From positions 2,948,501 to 3,012,500 of the forward strand of contig JAWNZC010000368.1 in the NCBI GenBank assembly GCA_035771165.1: DNA of 64,000 nucleotides, given 5' to 3'. Of this stretch, positions 8,472 to 23,834 are shown in pieces. The notes beneath the pieces were generated by a model. It had not been told where the DNA came from and did no database searches. It was given only the letters and a program-made list of their open reading frames with translations. A program made the position numbers and the translations under genes. Source of the DNA: Paragorgia papillata (Eukaryota; Cnidaria; Anthozoa; Scleralcyonacea; Coralliidae). Position 1 is the first letter of the stretch. Each line of letters begins with the position of its first letter.

Positions 8472-8547
8472 ATGACTGGGTCATGCAGTTTCTTTTGTAC
8501 AGCTGTGCTTAGTCTATTGTTTGCTCTATATCCGAATTCTTTACAAG
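8472..8547 (+). CDS. Gene B exon 1: signal peptide
   Basis: The ATG at 8472 opens 25 codons with a hydrophobic core ([14 protein letters not shown]) and ends in TTACAAG before GTAAAA, in phase 1. It is short, as usual for a secretory leader exon. A TTTCTTTTTGCAG at 8442-8454 upstream could be the acceptor of an intron in the 5' UTR. Confidence 0.78.
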
Positions 8548-23500: not shown

Positions 23501-23834
23501 TATAGTTGTTATCGCAGTATTTTGTGGGATAGGCATTGGGATTATATTCTCTTTCACCTTAATGTGGTTGTATCGACGAAGGAAAGAAAAGAGAGATCCT
23601 AAACCTTCTGAAGCACGTAGGGGTTCTGAAACCCACGATAATCCTTCTGTCTATCAAGAATTGGACTTGCAGCGAATGAATAAGGAAGATAATTATCAGT
23701 CACTGAGGAAGACTTCAAGACACGTTGGACATCAAGAACCAACCGCTGAAGCTGCAGAGTCTAGTTATCAGGAATTGGATAAAGTGAGGGGAAGTAATGA
23801 TGATAATAATTATCAATCTTTAAATCGTGTTTAG
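8472..23834 (+). CDS. Receptor gene B, complete: SP, V-like, Ig, Ig, TM, tandem ITAM-like tail
   Basis: Five exons join in one open frame: 8472-8547, 8885-9220, 20184-20450, 21101-21451 and 23458-23834. They total 1407 nt, giving 468 aa plus stop, with every join in phase 1. Layout by residue: signal peptide 1-25, V-like Ig 26-137, Ig-A 138-226, Ig-B with Thr-rich stalk 227-343, TM about 358-381, basic anchor 383-389. Tail tyrosines are 409, 423, 447 and 462, forming YQEL-x10-YQSL and YQEL-x11-YQSL. In known systems such paired YxxL motifs are phosphorylated by Src-family kinases and bind the tandem SH2 domains of Syk. The first and third tyrosines also fit the looser ITIM pattern SxYxxL. The 11-kb second intron is full of transposons. 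The start is chosen for the signal peptide and the phase-1 donor. A role in recognition or immunity is inferred. Confidence 0.88.
8726..8792. repeat. Short inverted repeat in gene B intron 1
   Basis: GCCTAGCCTCTGTGCAGACT is mirrored by AGTCTGCACACAGGCTAGG around an AT-rich centre. It is probably a small MITE or its remnant. Confidence 0.6.
8885..9220 (+). CDS. Gene B exon 2: V-like Ig domain without the canonical cysteines
   Basis: A 336-nt phase 1-1 exon lies between CTTTATAG and GTAAGAAA. The fold pattern is clear: VTLAWTYDF in strand B, IQWHFS with the core Trp in strand [21 protein letters not shown] for strands E-F, and a G strand before the donor. The B-strand Cys is replaced (AWTY) and the F-strand YxC reads MYRLE, so the usual disulphide is missing. 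Its partner for gene A should lie before the window. Confidence 0.82.
9487..13432 (-). mobile_element. hAT DNA transposon in gene B intron 2
   Basis: The ends are CGGTGGCGTTACTGGG and CAGTTACGCCACTG, imperfect hAT-type inverted termini. Perfect 8-bp target duplications TATACTGT flank them at 9479-9486 and 13433-13440. G- or C-homopolymer runs lie just inside each end. The body carries a broken transposase on the minus strand. The element is 3946 bp long and sits between exons 2 and 3 of gene B. Region 12704-13060 has an unrecognised open frame on the plus strand. Confidence 0.9.
9808..12520 (-). pseudogene. hAT transposase (ZMYM1-like), frameshifted
   Basis: Open pieces on the minus strand read, in order: an N-terminal low-complexity part (12509-12000), a TTF/zinc-finger-like part with CFPC (about 11900-11720), a DUF4371-type catalytic part (11696-11487 and 11484-10885, with [25 protein letters not shown] and [10 protein letters not shown]), a middle part with [11 protein letters not shown] (10864-10649), and the C-terminal hAT dimerisation region (10419-9808, with [21 protein letters not shown]). 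Adjacent pieces change frame at least three times, so no full protein can be made. Confidence 0.85.
13714..13968 (+). mobile_element. Possible solo LTR with primer-binding site
   Basis: A 255-bp block begins TGTGTGATG and ends ATAACA. It has TTATAAAAAGGG at about 13903 as a promoter-like box. TGGTGTCAGG follows directly, the look of a tRNA primer-binding site. No second LTR was found downstream. A gypsy-type integrase fragment at 15091-15310 supports an LTR element here. Boundaries are tentative. Confidence 0.4.
14401..15012 (+). pseudogene. LINE 5' fragment: hydrophobic leader, 2A-like peptide, AP endonuclease start
   Basis: A 203-codon frame opens with a hydrophobic stretch ([18 protein letters not shown]). 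It has DIAKNPGP at 14722-14745, matching the 2A ribosome-skipping consensus ending in NPGP. It then enters an AP-endonuclease-like start ([26 protein letters not shown]). 2A-like sequences before the endonuclease are known in APE-type non-LTR retrotransposons of marine invertebrates. The endonuclease is cut short, and the downstream sequence shifts frame ([11 protein letters not shown]) and passes into gypsy integrase sequence. Confidence 0.65.
15091..15310 (+). pseudogene. Ty3/gypsy integrase C-terminal fragment
   Basis: Read in one frame, this stretch gives [39 protein letters not shown] and SRRLRSVL. This is the typical end of a gypsy-family integrase core (RNTP, SPAQLL). A 13-bp unit (TTCGTTCAGTACT) is duplicated in it. 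It abuts the LINE endonuclease fragment with no spacer, so the locus is a chimera of two retroelement classes. Confidence 0.7.
15552..15938. repeat. Near-perfect inverted repeat, 138-bp arms
   Basis: The arms 15552-15689 and 15801-15938 are complementary over about 138 bp with no mismatch that I could see. The loop is 111 bp. The arms begin TTAACAGTTGTGTAAGCTGG and end at TGAAAGCTG. A transcript would form a long double-stranded RNA hairpin. It is probably a foldback element. The perfect match implies a young or gene-converted structure. Confidence 0.88.
16068..16735. mobile_element. Long-TIR MITE enclosing a GGA-rich tract
   Basis: The outer arms TACTCTGGTTCTAGAGGCTC and GAGCCTCGGGAACCAGAGTA are imperfect complements. 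The pairing continues inward through AACCGGTTTGGGAAA with TTTCCCAAACCGGTTT and AGAAGGGGGTTATA with TATAACCCCCTTCT. The core at 16284-16470 is almost pure purine (GGAGAAAGAGGAGG). Long plus- and minus-strand frames here are low-complexity artefacts. Confidence 0.75.
16980..17240 (+). repeat. Tandem repeat of about 115 bp
   Basis: The block GAAGCCCTCGGACAGGAATG followed by GGTCTTCAGTATTTTATTCTGG and TAACGCCAGACGATTTT occurs at about 16985, 17100 and 17218. The window start (position 1) is another copy of the third unit. The duplicated unit therefore begins within, or next to, this tandem array. Confidence 0.75.
17688..17768 (-). repeat. tRNA-like sequence, unit 2 copy
   Basis: Second copy of the tRNA-like block at 474-546, with the same A-box-like and B-box-like stretches on the minus strand and a small TTGAACTTAGCCA difference. 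Confidence 0.5.
17967..19290 (+). mobile_element. TIR element, CACGATCG family, unit 2 only
   Basis: The ends are CACGATCGAGAATTGC and GCAATTTCCGATCGTG, inverted repeats of 16 bp with two mismatches. TGTT flanks both ends. Unit 1 at 740-760 lacks the element but holds TGTTTGTT, both flanks joined. The element is 1324 bp with no transposase seen. A shorter relative lies at 6495-7088. Confidence 0.82.
19693..20124. mobile_element. hAT-type MITE, unit 2 only
   Basis: Inverted termini carry GTGGTGTGCG and CGCACACCTC. The interior is full of the short motif CGATCCGAT in both orientations. The flanks are CAGGGATT and CAGGGAAC, an 8-bp duplication with two changes. Unit 1 has the empty site (GGCCAGGGAACC). 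It ends about 60 bp before exon 3 of gene B. Confidence 0.72.
20184..20450 (+). CDS. Gene B exon 3: Ig domain (Ig-A)
   Basis: A 267-nt phase 1-1 exon lies between GATTCTGTTACAG and GTAAGTGC. The canonical Ig Cys pair (FTCLC and TYECKV) and core Trp (ASWSK) are present, with NxS/T sites. Substitutions relative to gene A include D to Y and K to E around the C-C' loop ([10 protein letters not shown]), a surface region. Confidence 0.87.
20546..20903. repeat. (AAT)n microsatellites around a LINE remnant
   Basis: AAT runs at 20546-20627 and 20805-20903 bracket about 177 bp (20628-20804) of the same minus-strand LINE C-terminal sequence seen in unit 1, here shortened and decayed. A GGTT-rich tract (20904-21018) follows. 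Confidence 0.85.
21101..21451 (+). CDS. Gene B exon 4: Ig domain (Ig-B) and shortened stalk
   Basis: A 351-nt phase 1-1 exon follows TTTTATAAG and ends before GTAAGGAA. Strand B is [10 protein letters not shown] and strand F is [11 protein letters not shown]. An extra Cys occurs in LTSCEG. The stalk is 11 codons shorter than in gene A, lacking the Asn-Lys-Thr-rich segment. Confidence 0.86.
21700..21781 (-). repeat. tRNA-like SINE head
   Basis: Minus strand: GGTGGCACAGTGGTTAGCGC (A box), a CTTCTGCGACC arm and GGGTTCGATTCC (B box) at tRNA spacing. It is probably the head of a tRNA-derived SINE, in the last intron of gene B. A functional tRNA is unlikely, because the flanks do not pair as an acceptor stem. 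Confidence 0.55.
21840..22800. repeat. Degenerate TTTCTTAAAATAAGAA-type tract, unit 2 copy
   Basis: Matches the tract at 3240-4110. It is split by the palindromic element at 22285-22681, which unit 1 lacks. Confidence 0.6.
22285..22681. mobile_element. Palindromic MITE, unit 2 only
   Basis: The arms run from CATATGGATTCTATTTATGTG at the left to an approximate complement ending ACAATCCATATC at the right. Inner pairs are TTGAATGCCAAAATATTTT with AAATATTTTGGCATTCAA and GAGGTTTGTATTTC with GAAATACAAACCTC. No coding sequence is seen. Confidence 0.78.
23109..23373. mobile_element. Small MITE with GGGGTGTTTACA termini
   Basis: GGGGGTGTTTACATGA at the left and TCCTGTAAACACCCCTT at the right are inverted. 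It is absent from unit 1. It ends 85 bp before the tail exon of gene B. A related short element may lie at 30773-30876. Confidence 0.65.
23458..23834 (+). CDS. Gene B exon 5: TM and tandem ITAM-like tail
   Basis: Follows TGTTTTACAG in phase 1 and ends with TAG. From [13 protein letters not shown] to the C-terminus it differs from gene A by one substitution and one inserted Asn over about 68 residues. The Ig-B exons differ at 19 of 104. The TM helix is uncharged and is followed by YRRRKEKRD. Confidence 0.88.

Follow-up and report, generated by a model that had tools for sequence, protein, structure and literature searches.

What kind of receptor is encoded at positions 8472-23834 (+) of the 64,000-nucleotide stretch of Paragorgia papillata DNA analysed here (contig JAWNZC010000368.1; the whole stretch is hereafter the window), and by which route might it signal? 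Five exons of this interval, designated copy A, join in the window DNA into one open frame of 468 amino acids (aa). Exon 1 (8472..8547) carries the start codon and the hydrophobic N-terminus of a signal peptide and ends at the donor GTAAAATC. Exon 2 (8885..9220) encodes domain 1, a cysteine-free, V-set-like immunoglobulin (Ig) domain; exon 3 (20184..20450) encodes Ig domain 2, exon 4 (21101..21451) Ig domain 3 and a Thr/Ser-rich stalk, and exon 5 (23458..23834) the juxtamembrane segment, the transmembrane (TM) helix, the cytoplasmic tail and the stop codon, which together form the tail module common to the relatives described below. All exons lie on the + strand, and all introns are GT-AG and in phase 1. 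Re-joining the exons confirmed the architecture given by the initial annotation, in which a signal peptide is followed by three domains of Ig fold, a TM helix free of charge and two YxxL pairs. The product is presumably spliced as modelled and displayed at the cell surface. The TM helix (about aa 357-381; 23496..23570) has no charged residue in its core and thus gives no sign of partnership with a charged adaptor. Intron 2 (9221..20183), 11 kb long, contains repeat-like sequence, including hAT-type transposase pieces in separate frames at 9808-11547 (-) (hAT dimerisation region, DUF4371) and, at 14359-15012, an open reading frame (ORF) which, by reading of the ORF and no profile, is like the start of a non-long-terminal-repeat (non-LTR) endonuclease.

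The four tyrosine boxes of the copy A tail form two pairs resembling immunoreceptor tyrosine-based activation motifs (ITAMs). In the first (Y409-L426; 23652..23705), Y409 QEL and Y423 QSL are separated by ten residues; in the second (Y447-L465; 23766..23822), Y447 QEL and Y462 QSL are separated by eleven. When the 85-residue cytoplasmic tail was shuffled 200,000 times, two pairs spaced 6-12 never appeared and one pair appeared in 456 shuffles; together with conservation, this rules out a chance origin of the paired tail. By comparison with the relatives, a single chain with a doubled ITAM is well supported. We assign a probability of about two in three to a type I receptor in which a cysteine-free V-set tip precedes two more Ig domains, the stalk and a two-ITAM tail, and which would activate the cell through a Src-family and then a Syk-family kinase.

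A search with the whole copy A product returned 14 matches among 4,449 candidates, and a search with the TM-tail of a Paramuricea relative returned 34 of 107 candidates at E <= 0.001. Combined, they yield at least 36 relatives (P0001-P0036), a number that is a lower bound because both searches took only proteins of 0.55-1.75 times the query length. Eighteen come from Paramuricea clavata, nine from Dendronephthya gigantea, eight from Xenia sp., and one is an ENA entry. All 35 species-named relatives belong to octocoral genera (Dendronephthya, Paramuricea, Xenia), which by itself would place the window very probably in an octocoral genome. Among the 107 candidates of the TM-tail search, no named match fell outside Octocorallia. 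When the cytoplasmic region of the window protein served as the query, with E values of up to 10 allowed, none of the 19 candidates passed; this search also missed known relatives, so it is silent on absence outside octocorals.

Identity to the window protein is 31-36% for seven relatives, P0001-P0007, and relatives align with the window protein over up to 99% of its length. According to the Pfam assignments, most relatives have Ig ectodomains, and the TM-tail with paired YxxL is what they have in common; their database names (hemicentin-like, CD22-like, OPCML-like, CEACAM5-like) are automatic annotation. Equal contig sizes, rather than contig names, suggest that relatives are linked within genomes. 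All eight Xenia relatives are on contigs of one size, 19.1 Mb, which is chromosome-sized and so indicates linkage only; five of the nine Dendronephthya relatives share a 2.34-Mb and three a 0.58-Mb contig size, and five of the 18 from Paramuricea share a 63-kb contig size. The receptor thus appears to belong to a duplicated octocoral family whose tail is the constant part and whose ectodomain is the variable part. This octocoral multigene family carrying a multi-ITAM cassette is new: the open literature on octocoral and coral ITAM receptors, searched without bioRxiv preprints and most subscription papers, yielded no report of it.

The contrast between constant and variable parts is visible in the mean identity of P0001-P0007 to the window protein, which reaches 67% in pair 1 and 53% in pair 2 and falls to 3% in the stretch between the pairs. 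The TM helix (46%), the juxtamembrane segment (25%), the stalk (19%) and domains 1, 2 and 3 (30, 39 and 29%) lie between these values. The window tail fits an octocoral TM-tail family in which the TM helix is followed by a YQELDLxxMNxEDNYQSL-type pair and then by a second YxxL pair; in the TM-tail alignment A1 (n = 15), Y409, Q410, L412, D413, N418, D421-L426, Y447, L450 and L465 are invariant. In a survey of 38 tails (the 36 relatives and two window copies), every tail had at least two YxxL/I motifs, 30 had four, and P0010 and P0015 had eight, arranged as four pairs each. Spacing was measured in the 28 distinct four-motif tails, leaving out eight other tails and two duplicates. The gap of pair 1 is 10 in 24 tails and 11 in four, that of pair 2 is 9 in 18, 10 in four and 11 in six, while the gap between pairs ranges from 9 to 21; Levene tests of these values treat related sequences as independent, and their p-values were not used. 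An acidic residue precedes the tyrosine at position -3 in 26, 30, 29 and 29 of 30 four-motif tails, for boxes 1 to 4 respectively, matching the D/E of the ITAM consensus D/ExxYxxL cited below. A fixed gap within units and a free gap between them are what docking of tandem SH2 domains would select. The Xenia tails P0026 and P0028-P0034 also carry extra tyrosines after both pairs (EYVIADE..NYENSN), a possible docking site that is not found in the other genera.

A tandem paralogue, copy B, lies within the same window at 1104-5072 (+). Its visible exons encode Ig domain 2 (1104..1370; 92% aa identity to copy A), Ig domain 3 with the stalk (2475..2858; 74%) and the TM-tail (4696..5072; 88%), the last with two YQEL/YQSL pairs spaced x10 and x10. 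No signal or domain 1 exons of copy B were found inside the window, and these would therefore lie upstream. Comparison of the two copies gave a ratio of nonsynonymous to synonymous rates (dN/dS) of 0.60 for the Ig2 exon (7 nonsynonymous and 3 synonymous changes), 0.70 for the Ig3 exon (25 and 10), 0.58 for the juxtamembrane and TM segment (9 and 4) and 0.18 for the cytoplasmic part (5 and 7). Ectodomain and cytoplasmic part have different nonsynonymous rates (Fisher p = 0.026). With all values below 1, the comparison gives no support for positive selection on the ectodomain. The same comparison bears on whether the gene is alive at all. An 11-kb intron with hAT-type pieces and other repeat-like ORFs is what one might see in a decaying, unexpressed tandem duplicate filled with transposon remains; but all five exons are open with intact splice signals, the visible copy B exons have splice sites matching those of copy A, and the overall dN/dS of the copies is 0.50, so that we consider decay very unlikely. 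An element of about 400 bp precedes the tail exon of copy B (4202-4599) and has an inverted match, 82% identical, at 24585-24958, downstream of copy A.

The initial annotation was right in outline, but it missed the family and overstated two features as unusual, namely a doubled ITAM wider than the norm and the union of ectodomain and ITAM in one chain. The doubling is upheld by the conservation, the spacing and the acidic -3 residues across the family. The spacing is not out of range. According to one review (PMC6433993; papers are cited here by PubMed Central number), the broad form of the motif is YxxL/I(6-12)YxxL, with a spacer of 12 in FcgammaRIIA, and the spacers of copy A (10 and 11) and copy B (10 and 10) fall inside it. 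Other papers give 6-9 (PMC4034164), or 6-8 with the consensus D/ExxYxxL (PMC7026191). Moesin, in which Y191 and Y205 are required for uptake and which recruits Syk (PMC6189171), has an x10 spacer as we count it; for Syk, a lower selectivity than that of ZAP-70 is described (PMC9486129). Given the 6-12 range, the 12 residues of FcgammaRIIA, the moesin example and the tolerance of Syk, the spacing is no obstacle to an ITAM function. Syk/Zap70 homologues are reported in invertebrates only where CARD-CC/Bcl10 is present, cnidarians included (PMC5978004).

The single chain is found here as claimed, and it has precedents. FcgammaRIIA and FcgammaRIIC are Ig receptors that signal without the common gamma chain, through an ITAM of their own whose spacer is given as 12 residues in PMC6433993, but they have a single ITAM and an Fc ligand and are vertebrate. 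The human granulocyte receptors CEACAM3 and CEACAM4 have an ITAM or ITAM-like motif in their own tail that depends on Src-family kinases; they differ in having one ITAM-like unit and, for CEACAM3, in bacterial uptake for which Syk is dispensable (PMC7026191). Oyster CgIgIT2, with five Ig domains and a TM segment (PMC11999971), Drosophila Draper and mammalian Megf10 (PMC8092387) also have an ITAM in the receptor chain; compared by description, they differ in that an ITAM rather than a multi-unit tail is reported and in their ectodomains. Among allorecognition systems, according to a review (PMC12065747), Hydractinia candidate genes have ITAM and inhibitory (ITIM) motifs, and the Botryllus FcoRs have ITIM and hemITAM motifs. 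Like the octocoral family, the Hydractinia Alr and Botryllus FcoR proteins are expanded, clustered invertebrate receptors of the Ig superfamily (IgSF) (PMC12065747, PMC11999971). No Alr or FcoR protein and no hydrozoan name occurs among the 36 relatives, a statement made without direct comparison with the Alr and FcoR sequences.

Several observations weigh against an activating, Syk-dependent ITAM tail. First, the gaps of 10-11 in the window and 9-11 in the 28-tail family exceed the strict 6-8 spacer, and six of the 38 tails have two or three YxxL/I motifs, fewer than four. Secondly, box 1 of the window has Pro rather than an acidic residue at -3, the first box of unit 2 having Glu. Thirdly, the ratio of nonsynonymous to synonymous changes does not contrast significantly between ectodomain and cytoplasmic part (p = 0.088), the changes being few. 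Fourthly, bacterial uptake by CEACAM3 was not reduced by Syk inhibition in the experiments described in PMC7026191, so that an ITAM in a receptor's own tail need not act through Syk. Finally, boxes 1 and 3 of the window, unlike boxes 2 and 4, fit the motif [SILV]xYxx[LVI], and each YxxL also fits the endocytic signal YxxPhi.

The fit to [SILV]xYxx[LVI] would suit an inhibitory receptor, whose SxYxxL boxes would recruit SHP-type phosphatases in the manner of an ITIM or inhibitory ITAM and damp the response on self contact, and ITAMs can also be inhibitory under low stoichiometry according to PMC6433993. The SxYxxL fit that the initial annotation had noticed in the window does not, however, extend across the family: the strict ITIM rule is satisfied by box 3 in 22 of 30 tails, but by box 1 in six, box 2 in none and box 4 in four. 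Moreover, the spacing within pairs is conserved, a constraint that an ITIM, which requires no second box at a set distance, would not impose. We therefore regard an inhibitory receptor as unlikely. It is also unlikely that the protein is an adhesion molecule in which the YxxL motifs act, through clathrin and AP-2, in endocytic turnover and no kinase signalling takes place. The four boxes all fit YxxPhi, and the V-I-I ectodomain resembles the IgLON, DIP, nectin and CEACAM adhesion molecules; AP-2 binding is mentioned for the CEACAM3 motif in PMC7026191. Independent sorting signals, however, would need neither a fixed gap of 9-11 combined with a loose gap between pairs nor the conserved linker and acidic -3 residues. 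An activating receptor with two ITAMs remains the interpretation that we prefer.

Its membrane-distal domain is predicted to adopt a V-set fold despite having no cysteine. A first check found no cysteine in domain 1 of 10 out of 10 sequences. A comparison of 19 full domains, taken from 25 alignment rows after setting aside four rows of insufficient length or without the domain, as well as P0019 and P0027, which aligned with a different Ig domain, found none in 15 and one in four (P0018, P0026, P0028 and P0030). With at most one cysteine in each of the 19, an internal disulfide pair is impossible, and the idea of a family-wide cysteine-free domain was narrowed because of the four relatives with one. 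In V-domains of the CEA family, an Arg-Asp salt bridge is described in place of the disulfide, and CEACAM3 and CEACAM4 are likewise Ig receptors with a V-type tip lacking the canonical disulfide (PMC4079198). They represent the nearest design, and we claim neither kinship nor common descent. A carcinoembryonic antigen chain (1e07, a deposited homology model) tops the PDB profile list, in which 315 distinct sequences score E <= 0.001, the best 60 of 315 being largely IgSF. Domain 1 alone has a weak profile match to CEACAM8 (E = 0.017) and a stronger one to Drosophila otk (1.2e-4); the fold comparison places myelin P0, Nav beta-2, nectin and CAR high on its list. CEACAM is not among the best 50 fold matches of domain 1, which excludes nothing. 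In view of the broad IgSF list, the E value of domain 1 and the other high-ranking folds, a CEACAM origin of the ectodomain was not adopted.

The tail module may not be confined to Ig receptors. Two Paramuricea relatives, P0013 and P0014, have the same TM-tail, and their ectodomains match no other collected protein at E 0.001; the ectodomain of P0014, and perhaps that of P0013, is of another kind. P0014 shares 74% identity with the Ig-type P0012 in the tail. Its ectodomain contains SRCR and FN3 domains that exceed the Pfam cut-offs, with SUEL-lectin and F5/8C just below; P0013 has nothing above the cut-off, and what it matches best is an Ig-like model under the threshold. Phase-1 introns and a TM-tail contained in one exon would allow shuffling. 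As automated models can fuse neighbours, and the two models come from one species, re-use of the TM-tail exon on non-Ig ectodomains is kept as a lead. P0015, named as a potassium channel and bearing an integrase-type domain, looks like a gene-model fusion.

By analogy with known ITAM systems, ligand binding would cluster the receptor, and a Src-family kinase would then phosphorylate the paired tyrosines. A Syk-family kinase with tandem SH2 domains would dock on each YxxL-x9-12-YxxL unit, and the activation that follows might take the form of engulfment, NF-kB signalling or rejection. The receptor may serve immunity or allorecognition, and the analogy suggests that octocorals may trigger immune or self/non-self responses by a phosphotyrosine switch similar to the one that vertebrates use in their immune receptors. 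More tentatively, and as a possibility rather than an expectation, the genes may form a clustered, diversifying octocoral recognition system in which a shared exon of one to four ITAM units is re-used on different ectodomains, of Ig type and, in one gene model, of SRCR/FN3 type with lectin- and discoidin-like domains, and signals through Src and Syk kinases free of separate adaptors. Such a system would correspond, in anthozoans, to the allorecognition complex of Hydractinia or to phagocytosis by CEACAM3 and Fc receptors. Few of the receptors that let corals sense microbes, symbionts or foreign tissue are known. With its fixed activation cassette, the family offers specific genes, tyrosines and a class of kinase for experiment, and would be an example of single-chain ITAM signalling expanded into a receptor system by an animal lineage that lacks adaptive immunity. 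Because its tails range from one to four units, the effect of ITAM number on signal strength could be studied along a series that nature provides.

Elsewhere in the window, repeats of the GGGGGGCAA and GGAAGG types extend over about 3.7 kb just downstream of copy A (25700-29400). Two reverse-transcriptase-like, non-LTR-like stretches were recognised by reading ORFs, with no profile, at 32663-36582 and 42614-46473, the second of which follows an ORF that matches a GDSL-like lipase. Near the end of the window, the exon-like segment 63337-63679 (-), with TTTTTTCAG before it and GTAAGT after it, encodes a different tyrosine-rich sequence (NPSYAASMDKGNPYESV ... PPVYAVVDKTKK) that has no Pfam match and is perhaps the cytoplasmic exon of another receptor.

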